Of a stretch of DNA of 64,000 bases, positions 15,836 to 22,951 are shown piece after piece. The stretch spans positions 434,001 through 498,000 of the forward strand of contig NZ_FNKQ01000001.1 in the NCBI RefSeq assembly GCF_900100875.1. The letters are read 5' to 3'. This DNA is from Halopelagius longus. Lineage in GTDB: Archaea; Halobacteriota; Halobacteria; Halobacteriales; Haloferacaceae. Within the stretch, counting starts at the first letter, position 1, and each line of letters begins with the position of its first letter. Made by a program: the position numbers and the translations under genes. The notes under the pieces were generated by a model that searched no databases, was not told where the DNA came from, and worked only from the letters and a program-made list of their open reading frames with translations.

Positions 15836-16111
15836 CTACACCTCGTCGTCGAACAGACCGGCCAGACGGATGTCCTGGTCGGTGATGCCGCCCTCCTCGT
15901 GACTCGTCAGGCGGACTTCGACCTCCTTGTACCCGACGCGAATCTCGGGGTGGTGAAACTCCTCTTCGGCCACCTCGCCGACGCGGGTGACGAACTCGAT
16001 TCCCTTCAGGTAGTCGTCGAACTCGTACGTCTTCGTTATCTCGTCTCCCTCGCGGTCCCACCCCTTCGGGAGCTTTCGCTGAATCTCGTCGTCGCTGAGC
16101 AGGTCGGCCAT
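15836..16111 (-). CDS. 4a-hydroxytetrahydrobiopterin dehydratase (PhhB/DCoH-like)
   Basis: A 91-residue pterin-4a-carbinolamine dehydratase. Catalytic motif visible: EEEFHHPEIRVGYKEVEV with the double His, then SHEEGGITDQDIRLA with the second His and Asp. In bacteria and animals it recycles the pterin cofactor of aromatic hydroxylases; in archaea without such hydroxylases it may act on molybdopterin or other pterins. MoeA genes lie about 1.5 kb away, but there is no direct operon link; the relation is inference. ATG start is the only plausible one. Confidence 0.92.
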   Translation of the reverse strand: MADLLSDDEIQRKLPKGWDREGDEITKTYEFDDYLKGIEFVTRVGEVAEEEFHHPEIRVGYKEVEVRLTSHEEGGITDQDIRLAGLFDDEV

Positions 16112-16153
16112 GTGAGGAAATGTCGAACGGATTCGGGATAACGTTTCTCCCCG

Positions 16154-17539
16154 TCAGTCGTCCGACAGGCTTTCGAGGACGCGCTGGGGGATGTCGTCGT
16201 CGGGACTCGGGTTCACGTCGGCGGGCATCCCGTCGGGGCGTCCCTCGGAGGACTCCCCCGACTCGCCGTCGTCCCCCGAGAAGTGGGGCATCTCGCCCTC
16301 GAAGTCGGGGTTGAACAGTCGCATGGCGGTCTGGATGGTGGACCAGTCGTCCTCGGCGGCGGCGTCGCGGAGACTCTTCGTCGGCGCGGAGAGCAACTGT
16401 CCGACGAGGGCGTCCGCCATCGACGCCACCGTCTCGCGTTGCTCCGGCGTGAGAGTGCCCTGCGACTCCAGTTTCGAGAGGGCGGTCTGGACCTCTCGCT
16501 CCTTGACGCGTTCGGCGGACTCGTACATCGCGCCGATGGCCTCGTCGGCGCGCTTTCGCTTGTAGGAGTCGAGCAGGCGGTCGAACTCGTCGTCTATCAT
16601 CGCCTCGACGCGGCGCGCCGCCTCCTCGCGGAGCGCCCGCGTCTCGTCGGTCACCGCTTCGAGGGCGTCGATGTCGCGGACGACGACGCCGGACGCCTCG
16701 CCTGCGGCGGGGTCCACGTCGCGGGGTTGGGCGATGTCGATGAGCATCGTCTCGCCCGCCCCGGCAACCTCGGGTTCCGAGATGACGTACGTCGGACTCC
16801 CGGTGGCGGTGATGACCACCTCGGCCTCCGCGACGGCCTCGTCCACGTCGTCCAACGGGACGGCGCGGGCGGGACTGTCCACCAACTCCGCGAGATGTTC
16901 GGCGTTCGAGAGCGTCCGGTTCGCCACGACGACTTCCTCGACGTCCGCGGCGGCCAACGCCTCGGCGGCGAGGCGGCCCATCTCGCCCGCGCCGACGACC
17001 AACGCGGTGGCTCCCGCGACGTCCACCTCGGACGCCGCGAGTTTGACCGCCGCCGACCCGAGGGAGACGGCCCCCTCGTTGATGCGCGTCTCCGTCCGGG
17101 CGCGTTCGCCGACGTGAACCGCCTTCGTCAGGGCGTCGTCGAGGACCGGTCCGACCGCCCCGGCCTCCCGCGCCGACTCGGCGGCGCGCTTGAGTTGGCC
17201 GAGTATCTGGTCCTCGCCGAGGACGAGCGATTCGAGTCCGGCGGCGACCCGCATGAGGTGCCGCAGGCTCTGCTCGTGGTCCATCTCGACGACGGAGCCG
17301 TCGCGGACGTCGGGCGCGAAGTCGTCGAGGGCGCGGCGTCCGACCGCCACGGCGTCGGTGACGACGTACGCCTCCGCCCTGTTGCAGGTCTGGATGGCGA
17401 ACGCCTCCTCGACGCCGTCCCGCGAGAGGAGACACTCGACGACGGTTTCGGCGTCGTCCGTCGACGCCGACTCTATCTCCTCGATGCTCGCAGACTCGTG
17501 CGAGACGCGGACGCCAGTTATCACTCCGGCGTCTCTCAT
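16154..17539 (-). CDS. hemA: Glutamyl-tRNA reductase
   Basis: A 461-residue GluTR catalysing the first committed step of tetrapyrrole synthesis (Glu-tRNA to glutamate-1-semialdehyde with NADPH). The catalytic cysteine is Cys52 in AIQTCNRAEAY; the S-x-x-LGEDQILGQ helix and the NADP-binding GAGEMGRLAAEAL are present, followed by the dimerisation helices. The C-terminal 60 residues (GDDGESGESSEGRPDG, then PSPDDDIPQRV) are an acidic haloarchaeal extension. The start ATG overlaps the sirC stop by 4 bp, so hemA is translated downstream of sirC and ahbAB: a heme operon. Confidence 0.96.
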   Translation of the reverse strand: MRDAGVITGVRVSHESASIEEIESASTDDAETVVECLLSRDGVEEAFAIQTCNRAEAYVVTDAVAVGRRALDDFAPDVRDGSVVEMDHEQSLRHLMRVAAGLESLVLGEDQILGQLKRAAESAREAGAVGPVLDDALTKAVHVGERARTETRINEGAVSLGSAAVKLAASEVDVAGATALVVGAGEMGRLAAEALAAADVEEVVVANRTLSNAEHLAELVDSPARAVPLDDVDEAVAEAEVVITATGSPTYVISEPEVAGAGETMLIDIAQPRDVDPAAGEASGVVVRDIDALEAVTDETRALREEAARRVEAMIDDEFDRLLDSYKRKRADEAIGAMYESAERVKEREVQTALSKLESQGTLTPEQRETVASMADALVGQLLSAPTKSLRDAAAEDDWSTIQTAMRLFNPDFEGEMPHFSGDDGESGESSEGRPDGMPADVNPSPDDDIPQRVLESLSDD

Positions 17540-18183
17540 CGGTCACCCCCCATCGTGTTACGTATCACGCGGTCTGCCTCTTGACGGGGATTAGATTCCC
17601 CCGTACGTAAAGCCTTCCAAACGCTCGGCGACCGTACGACGGCTCGGACGGCCTCTCGGCGCTTCTCCGGCGCGTAGCCGTCGCGTTTCAGTTCCGTCCG
17701 CAGGTCGGCGGTCAGGTCGGCTATCGCCCCCGCGCCGTCGAGTTCCGACTCGACCCGTTCGCGGAGGTACTTCGCGAGGGCGGGACTCGCGCCGCCGGTG
17801 GAGATGGCCGCCGTCACGTCGCCGTCCGTCGCCGTCGCGGGGACGACGACGCTTCCCGCCTCTCTGCCGCCACTCTCGTCGGCGCGGTTGACCAGCGCAC
17901 CGCGGCCCCGGGCGGCGCGTTCGGCCGCCTCGTTCACCGCCTCGTCGTCCGTCGCGGCGACGACGAGAGCGGGGTCCGTCCGGGCGACCCACTCCTCGAC
18001 ACCGTCGGGCGCCGGAGCATCGCGGACGCGTTCGGCCCCGCCGAAATCGTCGTCCGCAAAGTCGGGACTGACGACGATAACCTCCGCTTCGGCGGCGAAC
18101 CGACGCGCCTTCCGCGCGCCGACGCGTCCGCCGCCGAAGACGAGGACCGTCTCGCCCGCGAAGTCGTGGTACAGCGGTATCAC
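17536..18183 (-). CDS. sirC: Precorrin-2 dehydrogenase/sirohydrochlorin ferrochelatase (CysG N-terminal type)
   Basis: A 215-residue Met8P/CysG-like enzyme making sirohydrochlorin, and possibly siroheme, from precorrin-2. The Rossmann nucleotide motif VLVFGGGRVGARKA lies at residues 13-26; VVAATDDEAVN and ALVNRADES follow; the C-terminal part (STGGASPALAKYLRERVE) carries the usual ferrochelatase-like helices. GTG start. It sits between ahbAB (26 bp upstream, same strand) and hemA (4-bp overlap), supplying siroheme to the decarboxylase. The lack of the methyltransferase half means the precorrin-2-forming enzyme must lie elsewhere. Confidence 0.93.
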   Translation of the reverse strand: MIPLYHDFAGETVLVFGGGRVGARKARRFAAEAEVIVVSPDFADDDFGGAERVRDAPAPDGVEEWVARTDPALVVAATDDEAVNEAAERAARGRGALVNRADESGGREAGSVVVPATATDGDVTAAISTGGASPALAKYLRERVESELDGAGAIADLTADLRTELKRDGYAPEKRREAVRAVVRSPSVWKALRTGESNPRQEADRVIRNTMGGDR

Positions 18184-18208
18184 TCGTGGTCTCCCTCCGT
18201 GCGTCGTC

Positions 18209-19279
18209 TCACTGGGTGTTCGCCTCCGCGCGTTCGTCCATGCGGATGCCGGTCTTCTTCAGGATGCGCGTCGAGAACAGGGTGTCCCAGTCGTCGTCGC
18301 CGACGTCCCAGTACGTCTCCATCTCCTCGCGCACCCGTTCGATTCGCTCCTCGCTCTCCTCCTCGCTCCGACCGTGGGTCATCGCGAAGAAGTTGTACGG
18401 CCAGACGCCCTCGTGGCGGGGCCGCCGGTAGCAGTGGGTCACGAAGTCGAGTCCGGCGACGGCGGGACCCACCTCCTCGACCACCTCGTCCGGGACGTTC
18501 CAGACGGTCATGCCGTTCTCCGTGTAGCCGAGGGCGTAGTGGTTGGGGATGACGCCGACGCGGCGCACCTTCCCCTCCGTCTCGAACCGCTTTATCGTCC
18601 GGACGACCCACTCCGTCTCGGCGTCGATGGCCGCGGCCACGTCGGCGTACGGCGTCTCCGTTATCGGGAGGCCGCCCTGAATCTCCAGCACCAAGTCGCG
18701 TTCCGCGGGCGTCAGCGTCCGCCGCGACTCGGGGTCCACCTCGGGGCCGAGGTGCGACAGGTCAACGTCGCCGTCGGGGACGGGACCGTCGAGCATGAAC
18801 TTCGCCTCGACGCGGAACTCCCGTTTCTTCGGCAGGTTGTACGTCGGTTGCCCCGTCTCCGCCTCTATCCCGGCGAGAACCTCCTCGACGCGTTCCTCGT
18901 CGGCGACGCTGACGACGAACCAGACGTTGAGGTGCGGATGTTCGCGTTCGTAGTTGTGCGCGACTTCGCGGTGGGCGTTGACCGTCTCGACCACCTCGTC
19001 GAACCGGTCCTCGGGGGCGTGCATGGCGACGAGCGTCGCCGTCCCCCCTATCTCCTCGGCGTTGACGAGTGCGCCGAACCGGGTGAGGACGCCCGACTCG
19101 TCGAGGCGTCGGACGCGTTCGAGAAGTTCGTCGGCGGTCACCTCGACGCCGCGTTCCCGGAGTGCCGCGGCGGCCGGTTCGAACGGACGTTCCACCACGG
19201 GGAACCCGCCCTGAAACGCGTTGACGATGGCGCGGTCGAGTTCCGTCAGGTCCTCGACGTCGGCGTCGGCCCTACTCAT
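18209..19279 (-). CDS. ahbAB: Fused AhbA-AhbB siroheme decarboxylase
   Basis: A 356-residue Lrp/AsnC-like protein with two copies of the same unit. Half one (1-175): wHTH DLTELDRAIVNAFQGGFP, then HNYEREHPHLNVWFVVSV and TYNLPKKREFRV. Half two (180-356): LTPAERDLVLEIQGGLPIT, RVGVIPNHYALGYTENGM, VTHCYRRPRHEGVWPYNFFA and the MTHG that follows. These match AhbA and AhbB, which decarboxylate siroheme to 12,18-didecarboxysiroheme in the archaeal heme route. In other archaea they are separate chains; here they are one polypeptide. Leads the operon ahbAB-sirC-hemA. Confidence 0.93.
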   Translation of the reverse strand: MSRADADVEDLTELDRAIVNAFQGGFPVVERPFEPAAAALRERGVEVTADELLERVRRLDESGVLTRFGALVNAEEIGGTATLVAMHAPEDRFDEVVETVNAHREVAHNYEREHPHLNVWFVVSVADEERVEEVLAGIEAETGQPTYNLPKKREFRVEAKFMLDGPVPDGDVDLSHLGPEVDPESRRTLTPAERDLVLEIQGGLPITETPYADVAAAIDAETEWVVRTIKRFETEGKVRRVGVIPNHYALGYTENGMTVWNVPDEVVEEVGPAVAGLDFVTHCYRRPRHEGVWPYNFFAMTHGRSEEESEERIERVREEMETYWDVGDDDWDTLFSTRILKKTGIRMDERAEANTQ

Positions 19280-19381
19280 TACCTCTCTTTCAGTATTCTG
19301 GATGGATAAGCGTCTCGAAGGAGGTGACGTTTCGGGGCGTCTACCGCCCGATCCAGCCCGATTAACCGTGTACGTCCGAGG

Positions 19382-19780
19382 TCAGGGAACGGGCGTCACG
19401 CGGTCGACGTGGGCCAACTCTTCGAGTTCATCGACGATGGCGTCGTGGTCGGCGGTGGCCTCGTAGTAGAACACGATGTCGAACGTCCCGTTCCGGAGCA
19501 GTTGCTGGCACTCCCAGACGAACTCCTCGTCGTCGAGCGTCAGGCCTTGGAACTGGTTGGAGGCGAAGTCCGTGTCGTCGTTGCCGGCGTAGATGTACGT
19601 CTCGCCCTTCCCGGCGTGCGCCGCGATGACTTCGTTCGCGTCGACGGTGAGTTCCTGCATCTCCAAGTCCTCCTGTCCGTCGAGGTCCGTGTGGACGATG
19701 GCGCCCACGAGTTCGATATCGCCCGGTTCGAGGAGCGCCATCGTGCGCTTGTAGAGGTCGTCGTCTACGGCGTCGGTCAT
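19382..19780 (-). CDS. DUF5778 family protein
   Basis: A 132-residue haloarchaeal protein of a family of unknown function (I believe DUF5778). Sequence features: LYKRTMALLEPGDIELVGAI, IYAGNDDTDFASNQFQGLTL and DIVFYYEATADHDAIVDELE; it looks like a compact alpha/beta protein. ATG at MTDAVDDDLYKR is the start, the long upstream frame on this strand being a shadow of uppS. Divergent from uppS with about 140 bp between, so they may share a control region. Confidence 0.8.
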   Translation of the reverse strand: MTDAVDDDLYKRTMALLEPGDIELVGAIVHTDLDGQEDLEMQELTVDANEVIAAHAGKGETYIYAGNDDTDFASNQFQGLTLDDEEFVWECQQLLRNGTFDIVFYYEATADHDAIVDELEELAHVDRVTPVP

Positions 19781-19918: not shown

Positions 19919-20848
19919 ATGTTGCAGTGGGCTCGTCGTCGATTCGCTAGCGCGTACGAGCAGATGCTCCGGCGGGAGGTCGGGAACGGCCCCGACCACG
20001 TCGCCATCATCCAAGACGGAAACAGGCGGTACGCGCGCAAAAGCGGCGACGACGTGTCCGAAGGCCACAGGGAGGGCGTGAAGACGACCGAACAGGTCCT
20101 CAACTGGTGCGACGAACTCGGCGTCGAGGAACTCACCCTCTACACCTTCTCGACGGAGAACTTCGACCGCCCGGAGGACCAGCTCGAAGCGCTCTTCGAC
20201 CTCATCGAGTCGAAGTTGTACGAGTTCGCCGACGCCGACCGGGTCCACGACGGCGAGGTCCGAATCTCCGCCATCGGAGAGGTCGAACTCCTCCCCGACA
20301 GACTGCAGGAGGCCGTCGAGTACGCGGAGGACCGGACCCGCGAGTACGACGGCTTCCGGTTGAACATCGCCCTTGCGTACGGCGGGCGGGCGGAACTTCT
20401 CGGGGCGGCCCGCGACGTCTGCCGCGCCGTCGAACGCGGCGACCTCTCGCCCGAGGACATCGGCGTCGAGGAGATAGACCGACGACTGTACCGCCAACCC
20501 GCCCGCGACGTCGACCTCATCATCCGCACCGGCGGCGACGAACGCACCTCGAACTTCCTCCCGTGGCACGCGAACGGCAACGAAGCGGCCGTCTACTTCT
20601 GTGCGCCCTACTGGCCGGAGTTCTCGAAGGCCGACTTCCTCCGCGGCCTCCGGACGTACGAGTCCCGCGAGAAGTCGTGGCAGCGCACCCGGTCGGAACG
20701 GGCGGTGGCCCTCGTCCGCGCCGTCGCCGAGACGGAACTCGCCGAGGCGCGCACCGTCGCGGGCCGCCTCCGAGAGCAACTGTCCTCGACGGGAGCGCAG
20801 CAGGTCACCGCGGAGTTGGAGCGTCAGGGCGAGGAAATCGCGGACTGA
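19919..20848 (+). CDS. uppS: Polyprenyl diphosphate synthase (cis-prenyltransferase)
   Basis: A 309-residue cis-prenyltransferase making the long-chain polyprenyl carrier used for N-glycans. The catalytic P-loop-like motif is VAIIQDGNRRYARK with Asp33; further conserved blocks are TLYTFSTENF, RLNIALAYGGRAELL and the C-terminal LIIRTGGDERTSNFLPWH. The C-terminal sheet is diverged (EAAVYFCAPYWPEF instead of the usual ELYFTDxxWPDF). Start ATG at MLQWARRRF; the frame is open upstream but has no coding character. Convergent with a catalytically degenerate paralogue 57 bp away. Confidence 0.95.
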   Translation: MLQWARRRFASAYEQMLRREVGNGPDHVAIIQDGNRRYARKSGDDVSEGHREGVKTTEQVLNWCDELGVEELTLYTFSTENFDRPEDQLEALFDLIESKLYEFADADRVHDGEVRISAIGEVELLPDRLQEAVEYAEDRTREYDGFRLNIALAYGGRAELLGAARDVCRAVERGDLSPEDIGVEEIDRRLYRQPARDVDLIIRTGGDERTSNFLPWHANGNEAAVYFCAPYWPEFSKADFLRGLRTYESREKSWQRTRSERAVALVRAVAETELAEARTVAGRLREQLSSTGAQQVTAELERQGEEIAD

Positions 20849-20898
20849 CGAGCTAGTCAACCGACCGAATTTCCGTCGCTCGCTTCGCTCGTGACGAC

Positions 20899-20918
20899 GT
20901 TTGGCCTACCGGCCAAAC
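20899..20918. terminator. Hairpin between convergent cis-prenyltransferase genes
   Basis: Perfect arms GTTTGGCC (20899-20906) and GGCCAAAC (20911-20918) with loop TACC, overlapping the last codons and stop of the minus-strand paralogue. It is a candidate bidirectional transcription stop for the two convergent genes. No long T-run follows, so the role is inferred. Confidence 0.5.
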
Positions 20919-21514
20919 CTTCGCTGTCGGTTCTGGTAGTCCAACACCGCCCGCAGGTAGTCGCGCTTCCTGAAGTCCCGCCAGTTCACGTCGGTGAAGT
21001 ACAGTTCCGAGTAGACGGACTGCCAAATCATGAAATCCGAGAGCCGTTCCGCGCCGGTCTTCAGCACCAAGTCGGGTTCGTCGGGGAAGACGAGTCGCTC
21101 TTCGACGTGGTGTTCGTCCACGTCGTCGGGCGAGACGTTCCCCGCTTCGACTTCCGTGGCGATGGAGCGGACGGCCTCCGCGAACTCGTGTTTGCCGCCG
21201 AGGCCGATGCTCACCTGCACGGGCGTATCGACGCGTTCCGTGTCGTCCGGCCCGCGGACGGCGAGCGTTCGCGGACTCTGCACTTCGGTGAGTTCCCGTT
21301 CGAGCGTCGGCACGACGGCTTCGTCGAGGACGCTCACCGAGACGGTGACCTGTTCTGCGCCGTACTCGAACGCCCAGCCGAAGAACTCCTCTAGCGTGTC
21401 GTACGCGCCCTGTTCCAACAGGTCGCGTTCGGTGATGACCACCGCGACGTGTTCCGGGGGGTCGGACTCGTGGCGTCTGTGGCGGAGGGCGAGGTAGCGG
21501 TCGTACAGTCCCAC
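20906..21514 (-). CDS. Cis-prenyltransferase paralogue lacking the catalytic DGN motif
   Basis: A 202-residue member of the UppS family. The substrate-binding DGN motif is gone: where the intact paralogue has IIQDGNRRYARK this protein has VAVVITERDLLEQG. The C-terminal half is well kept and closer to bacterial UppS: DLVLKTGAERLSDFMIWQ, then YSELYFTDVNWRDF. That is the pattern of NgBR/Nus1-type accessory subunits. GTG start (VGLYDRYLALR) chosen because the extended N-terminus is Arg-rich non-coding. The RTGG of the partner is KTGA here. Probably a partner or regulator of the neighbouring uppS; inference. Confidence 0.85.
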   Translation of the reverse strand: MGLYDRYLALRHRRHESDPPEHVAVVITERDLLEQGAYDTLEEFFGWAFEYGAEQVTVSVSVLDEAVVPTLERELTEVQSPRTLAVRGPDDTERVDTPVQVSIGLGGKHEFAEAVRSIATEVEAGNVSPDDVDEHHVEERLVFPDEPDLVLKTGAERLSDFMIWQSVYSELYFTDVNWRDFRKRDYLRAVLDYQNRQRRFGR

Positions 21515-21643: not shown

Positions 21644-22951
21644 GTGCATTCGACGCTTCGGCGAGCGGGTGGGTTCGCCGTGGTGGGGACGCTGGCTCTG
21701 GCGGCGCCGGCGCTGAACGGTGCGGCGTTCGCGCCGTTCGCGGCAGTCGCGCTCTTGGCCGCGTTCGTCATCACGGACGGTCCGCTGTTCGAGCTGTTCG
21801 CCCGGCCCGGAGACCGACAGGACGGCCGGCTGAACGGCCTCGCGGGGTTCGCACTCGCCGCGGCCGGACTGGCCATCTTCTCCACCGTGATGGACCTCCC
21901 GGTGGACCTGTTCGTCGCCGCCGTCGTCGTCCTCGCCTACGGCAACCTCGGCGCGGAACTCGTCGCCGAGACGTCGGACGACCCGTTCCTCGGCACCGCA
22001 GGTTTCGTCTTCGGGGGGTTCCTCGCGGGCATCCTCGCGCAGGCGGCCGTCGCGTCGTACGTCGGCGGCGAGGTTCTCCTCCCGCGCTTCGCCTTCCTCG
22101 CGGCCGCCGCCGCCCTCGTCGCGGCGTTGGTCCGCGAAGTGCTCTTCGAGCAGGACGACCCGCTCGTGATGCTCTCTGCGGGACTCCTGCTGTGGCTGTT
22201 CGACTTCCTCGCCGACACCGTCGCGCCGGTCGAAATCGCCGTCGCCTTGGTCGTCACCGTCTTCCTCGGCTACGTCTCGTACGCCTTGGGAACCGCGTCC
22301 GTCGCGGGGATGCTGACGGGCGTCCTCCTCGGACTCCTCACCATCGTCTTCGGCGGGTTCGGCTGGTTCGTCGTCCTCATCTCCTTCTTCGCTATCGGCG
22401 GCCTCTCGGCGAAGTTCAAGTACGACGCGAAGAAGGACCGCGGCGTCGCAGAAGACAACGACGGGGCGCGCGGCACCGGCAACGTCCTCGGCAACGCCGC
22501 CGTCGCCCTCGTCGCCGTCGTCCTGTTCGCCGCGAGTCCGTGGCTTCCCGTCGGCGCGGACGTCTTCCAGTACGCCTTCGCCGGGTCGCTGGCGGCGGCG
22601 ATGAGCGACACGCTCTCGTCGGAAATCGGCGGGCTCTACGACAACCCTCGGCTCATCACGACGTTCGAAACCGTCGCGCCCGGCACCGACGGCGGCGTGA
22701 CGTGGCAGGGGGAACTCGCCGGCGTCGCGGGCGCGGGCATCGTCGCCGCCTTCGCCTACTTCGTCCTCTCGGACGTGACGTTCGCGGGCGCGTTGGTCGT
22801 CCTCCTCGGCGGCGTCGTCGGCATGACCGTCGATAGCCTCCTCGGCGCGACGGTGGAGGGCGACCGAATCGGCAACGAGGCGGTGAACTTCGCGGCCACC
22901 GTCGTCGGCGCACTCGTCAGCACCGTCGTCGCCGTCGCCGCACTCGTCTGA
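21644..22951 (+). CDS. DUF92 family membrane protein (phytyl-phosphate kinase-like)
   Basis: A 435-residue polytopic protein with about a dozen hydrophobic segments, matching DUF92. Plant and cyanobacterial relatives (VTE6) phosphorylate phytyl phosphate; the archaeal role is unknown. Conserved-looking blocks: GLLTIVFGGFGWFVVLISFF, GGLSAKFKYDAKKDR, GARGTGNVLGNAAVAL, AAAMSDTLSSEIGGLYD, and the Gly-rich GVTWQGELAGVAG. GTG start supported by a TATA box 27 bp before it. It overlaps the next gene by one base (TGATG) and is divergent from the degenerate cis-prenyltransferase, which suggests a polyprenol-phosphate role; this is inference. Confidence 0.88.
   Translation: MHSTLRRAGGFAVVGTLALAAPALNGAAFAPFAAVALLAAFVITDGPLFELFARPGDRQDGRLNGLAGFALAAAGLAIFSTVMDLPVDLFVAAVVVLAYGNLGAELVAETSDDPFLGTAGFVFGGFLAGILAQAAVASYVGGEVLLPRFAFLAAAAALVAALVREVLFEQDDPLVMLSAGLLLWLFDFLADTVAPVEIAVALVVTVFLGYVSYALGTASVAGMLTGVLLGLLTIVFGGFGWFVVLISFFAIGGLSAKFKYDAKKDRGVAEDNDGARGTGNVLGNAAVALVAVVLFAASPWLPVGADVFQYAFAGSLAAAMSDTLSSEIGGLYDNPRLITTFETVAPGTDGGVTWQGELAGVAGAGIVAAFAYFVLSDVTFAGALVVLLGGVVGMTVDSLLGATVEGDRIGNEAVNFAATVVGALVSTVVAVAALV

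Follow-up and report, generated by a model that had tools for sequence, protein, structure and literature searches.

In homodimeric cis-prenyltransferases (cPTs), the C-terminal RxG motif of one chain closes the active site of its partner. In the human heteromer of DHDDS and NgBR, the RxG tail of NgBR reaches over the interface as far as the active site. The C-terminal extension of DHDDS is responsible for tetramer assembly and cannot coexist with the tail contact of homodimers, a contact that NgBR provides instead (PMC7573591). Amongst archaea, MM_0618 and MM_1083 of Methanosarcina mazei form a heteromeric cPT with C45-50 products, a length matching that of the carrier lipid of this organism, and a third cPT, MM_0014, is homodimeric and lacks RxG, as do its close relatives (PMC8131916). 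Our literature search found no experimental test of a haloarchaeal pair such as the one described here and no phylum-wide evidence for the division of the enzyme between two genes.

The window analyzed here, a stretch of 64,000 nucleotides from the Halopelagius longus genome, encodes two cPT homologues, P1 and P2, which are the only ones in this genome (99.8% complete). The features discussed below are as follows:

15836-19780, minus strand: haem-related cluster followed by DUF5778, adjoining P1, within the window
19919..20848, plus strand: P1, putative catalytic, DHDDS-like cPT subunit (PF01255, core residues, Foldseek)
20015..20023, plus strand: DGN catalytic motif of P1, residues 33-35 (read from the sequence)
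20672..20845, plus strand: predicted C-terminal extension of P1 in place of the RxG tail (AlphaFold2, pLDDT about 78-87 there)
20906..21514, minus strand: P2, putative non-catalytic, NgBR-like cPT subunit (PF01255, NgBR profile match, modelled fold)
20912..20920, minus strand: RxG motif (R-F-G) at the extreme C-terminus of P2 (P2-class alignment)
21416..21436, minus strand: ITERDLL at the DGN place of P2 (alignment; human NgBR has ITEVEQE there)
21644..22951, plus strand: DUF92 (arCOG02245) membrane protein of the cytidylyltransferase/dolichol-kinase-like superfamily (PF01940, E 3.8e-56)

P1 (309 aa) extends from the ATG at 19919 to the stop at 20848 on the plus strand, and a Pfam search matches it to positions 1-217 of the 219 in PF01255 (E 2.3e-68). 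The first-pass annotation had credited this gene with the catalytic DGN, which is present in the context QDGNRRYA. The alignment also places in P1 equivalents of all of D26, N28, R30, H43, N74, R77, R194, R200, and S202 (E. coli numbering). At the RxG position of E. coli UppS, P1 instead has S-W-Q, and its C-terminus carries about 55 additional residues, for which the AlphaFold2 model (P1 pLDDT 88) predicts helices at 237-270, 274-287, and 290-308. All of the top eight Foldseek matches of the model are human DHDDS chains. The alignment of P1 to DHDDS covers 315 columns and includes the extension with an rmsd of 12, a value high enough that the angle of the predicted hairpin may differ from that in DHDDS or is unsure. 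P1 thereby resembles the catalytic subunits of human DHDDS/NgBR, yeast Rer2/Nus1, and plant CPT/LEW1 in having DGN, no RxG, and, in its model, a C-terminal helical hairpin. The P1 tail is shorter in many methanogens.

P2 (202 aa) extends from the GTG at 21514 to the stop at 20906 on the minus strand. An upstream ATG at 21649 was rejected as its start because the homologue alignments begin at the 21514 start. The match of P2 to PF01255 is far beyond chance (E 2.3e-26) and is confined to positions 113-219, the C-terminal half of the profile. The same annotation had described the minus-strand paralogue as having ITERDLL in place of DGN and keeping a bacterial-like C-terminus, and both points agree with the alignment: P2 reads VVITERDLL with TER aligned to DGN, the positions of H43, N74, and R77 are deleted, and the C-terminal half of the cPT is kept as far as a terminal RQRRFGR. 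What the annotation did not include is that P1 is without RxG and is extended at its C-terminus, and that RxG is on P2.

Along its length, a P2 profile matches human NgBR (E ~2e-10; hhalign 97%; identity 19%). The P2 model has a cPT fold (mean pLDDT 84) and superimposes on NgBR along its entire length (Z 13.9-14.7, rmsd ~4, ~180 residues). The modelled C-terminal tail has a pLDDT below 50, which is not surprising for a tail predicted without its partner. The fold search was rejected as a pointer to NgBR specifically, since NgBR chains tied with homodimeric cPTs. P2 shares with NgBR the lack of DGN and a terminal RxG, from which yeast Nus1 deviates (PMC7573591). However, the identity is low, and NgBR has an N-terminal membrane anchor whereas none is visible in P2, in which ~20 residues of polar helix precede the cPT fold. 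The anchor belongs to NgBR in particular and does not define heteromeric cPTs in general.

The division of motifs between the two proteins was examined in an alignment that comprised 131 sequences of the P1 class, 133 of the P2 class, and 11 from single-gene enzymes. E. coli UppS, human DHDDS, and human NgBR, verified against PDB chains, served as references. DGN is present in 131/131 P1-class rows, i.e., in all 130 Halobacteriota P1, and in 0/133 P2. The other core catalytic residues are nearly always present in the P1 class, and the positions of H43, N74, and R77 are mostly deleted across the P2 class (n = 133). R-x-G, at the positions of E. coli R242 and G244, occurs in none of the 130 Halobacteriota P1. 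In the P2 class, the glycine is found in 133/133 and the arginine in 132/133 sequences (the remaining one has K), and exactly one residue follows the motif in all 133. The single P1-class row with RxG (L195) is a Thermoplasmata single enzyme. DGN and RxG do not occur on the same chain in either P1 or P2, whereas the homodimeric UppS type (E. coli, Thermoplasmatota), with the same fold and chemistry, carries both on one chain. In this alignment, the partition between P1 and P2 in Halobacteriota is essentially absolute. A divergent third haloarchaeal homologue (L125, G080:C1:478200-480400) has DGH for DGN in a frame of 496 aa.

P1 and P2 are distributed together. Amongst the 79 sampled genomes of Haloferacaceae, the family of the window, all have homologues, each at least two. 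The sample of the class (145 genomes) has at least two in every genome except G130 (120 contigs), in which P2 is present without P1, perhaps because of an assembly gap. In the phylum sample, homologues were found in 117/119 genomes, nearly all with two, and none was found in G188 and G196, related genomes of one family (f17; 91% complete). P2 is present in 45/45 and P1 in 44/45 of the genomes for which all matches were listed; beyond those 45, one of each rests on match counts. Several genomes (G018, G032, G049, G151, and G199) have two P1 and one P2, and no second P2 was seen amongst the genomes with matches listed. Additional P1 copies beside one P2 are expected if P2 is a shared accessory subunit, and P2 may serve two catalytic partners by analogy to Nus1 with Rer2 and Srt1. 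The second P1-type copies at L126-L129 (G018, G032, G049, and G037) are likewise without RxG, seemingly with one P2 each. In contrast to Halobacteriota, homologues in Thermoplasmatota (59/61 genomes) are single in 53 genomes and nearly always reach the end of the profile, and the NgBR-like half-profile type was absent from the 61 genomes.

G271, a genome related to M. mazei, carries a single P1, a single P2, and one homologue of the MM_0014 type (E 2e-137 against the solved MM_0014). By elimination, MM_0618/MM_1083 correspond to the P1/P2 pair and are very probably its direct orthologues, M. mazei belonging to the same phylum and having two cPT homologues besides the MM_0014 type. The products may differ in length, as haloarchaeal carrier lipids are C55-60, compared with C45-50 for the M. 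mazei heteromer. The first-pass annotation had likened the two genes to DHDDS/NgBR and to the Methanosarcina heteromer. This likeness gains from the motif partition in 130 P1 and 133 P2, the pairing of a single P1 with a single P2 in almost all sampled Halobacteriota genomes, the DHDDS-like helices of the P1 model together with the NgBR profile match of P2, and the retention of both motifs in the single-gene enzymes of Thermoplasmatota.

Taken together, P1 and P2 very likely act as the subunits of a single heteromeric cPT, which would produce the dolichol-type glycan carrier. From the comparisons above, we infer that the two proteins bind, depend on each other, and share this product and pathway role. 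P1 could instead be a self-sufficient homodimer, with P2 a separate regulator or lipid-binding protein and not a subunit. Every core catalytic residue is kept in P1, and because MM_0014 acts as a homodimer without RxG (PMC8131916), the absence of RxG alone is no proof of partner dependence. However, the motif missing from all Halobacteriota P1 lies at the exact C-terminal place in P2, single-gene relatives keep both motifs, P2 occurs in every genome listed in full (45/45), and the M. mazei pair is heteromeric (PMC8131916), all of which make a self-sufficient P1 improbable.

P2 could also be considered a decaying pseudo-enzyme left by duplication, its catalytic half being degenerate and shortened and its branch in the tree long (0.95). 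Nevertheless, P2 is kept across the phylum, 15 columns are invariant over 73 rows (P2, 68 P2 homologues, and four single-gene enzymes), dN/dS between relatives is below 1 for P2 as it is for P1, and the model is folded. Conservation and dN/dS contradict a pseudogene, leaving this explanation with practically no probability.

With the longest branches excluded, P1 and P2 form separate clades (support 98/92 and 100/100), both of which include sequences from haloarchaea, Methanosarcinales, Methanomicrobiales, ANME lineages, and deeper families. As both clades span the phylum, the split is older than the radiation of Halobacteriota. In the trees, human DHDDS fell amongst the single-gene enzymes, although this placement was weakly supported, and NgBR formed a very long branch. 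AU tests (p values of 0.56 and 0.22) rejected neither of the two groupings that would join P1 to DHDDS and P2 to NgBR. An origin of P1/P2 and DHDDS/NgBR from one ancient pre-eukaryotic heteromer, with Thermoplasmatota either standing apart from the split or having since lost it, is a speculative and rather unlikely scenario on the present sampling of Halobacteriota and Thermoplasmatota genomes. One contig labelled Candidatus Nealsonbacteria (L199) carries a Thermoplasmatota-type cPT near that of Haladaptatiplasma and is probably mis-binned or the gene transferred.

The two genes are neighbours in most haloarchaea and unlinked in some genomes, including the sampled Methanosarcina-like ones. In the window they converge, the two stop codons being 57 bases apart, and all of the 77 fetched loci with both genes, some of them redundant, have the same tail-to-tail arrangement with spacing from overlap to ~2 kb. 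Because the genes are convergent, P1 and P2 are not co-transcribed. A convergent rather than operonic order is puzzling for subunits of one complex. The DUF92 gene is divergent from P2 across a gap of 129 bases (start ~21644) and adjoins P2 in most haloarchaeal loci and in several methanogen and ANME loci. The DUF92-P2 pair is also found in Methanothrix, Methanoperedens, and other loci without P1 inside the fetched flank. A link between DUF92 and uppS was reported previously, together with the proposal of a kinase-type step in isoprenoid metabolism (Makarova et al., 2015; PMC5898192). The steady partner of DUF92 is the non-catalytic P2, which refines the reported link. The DUF92 gene is likely a pathway neighbour of P1/P2, and its product is a candidate polyprenol or dolichol kinase. 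The recurrent haloarchaeal gene order is DnaG-GNAT-DUF92-P2-P1-DUF5778-AhbA. In the window, the haem-related cluster includes glutamyl-tRNA reductase, a precorrin-2 dehydrogenase-like protein, and sirohaem decarboxylase AhbA/B-like proteins, and the order of DUF5778 and AhbA is kept at other haloarchaeal loci.

In the proposed mechanism, P1 would hold the active site, with DGN and the substrate arginines, and a helical hairpin like that of DHDDS would have taken the place of its RxG tail. P2, having lost catalysis, would extend its own RxG tail across the dimer interface and complete the active site of P1, the role that NgBR plays for DHDDS. Starting from a short all-trans allylic diphosphate, the complex would add IPP to give C55-60 polyprenyl diphosphate. 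This would be converted to dolichyl phosphate, on which AglB N-glycosylation relies as its carrier. A duplication followed by reciprocal losses, both before the radiation of Halobacteriota, may have given rise to this division of labour. A heteromer making an isoprenoid other than the N-glycan carrier would fit the side functions of MM_0014-type cPTs and the use of glycan carriers for other polymers. However, P1 and P2 are the sole cPT genes of a genome that also has an STT3/AglB homologue, and the M. mazei product fits the length of its carrier lipid (PMC8131916); we consider such a product very improbable and retain the glycan carrier as the likely one.

Much of the dolichyl-phosphate pathway of archaea still awaits characterisation (PMC5088576), and the present comparison pins down its likely cis-elongation enzyme for a whole phylum. 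It also gives a reason for the two uppS-like genes in haloarchaea. Mutations in the human enzyme are associated with a glycosylation disorder, epilepsy, and retinal disease, and the haloarchaeal pair may offer a soluble-looking, genetically tractable counterpart. The heteromeric type of cPT is already known, and what is added here is the phylum-wide evidence for the split. With reciprocal loss across the phylum and a single-gene outgroup, P1 and P2 present a clear natural example in which two motifs of a single active site have come to lie on separate proteins.
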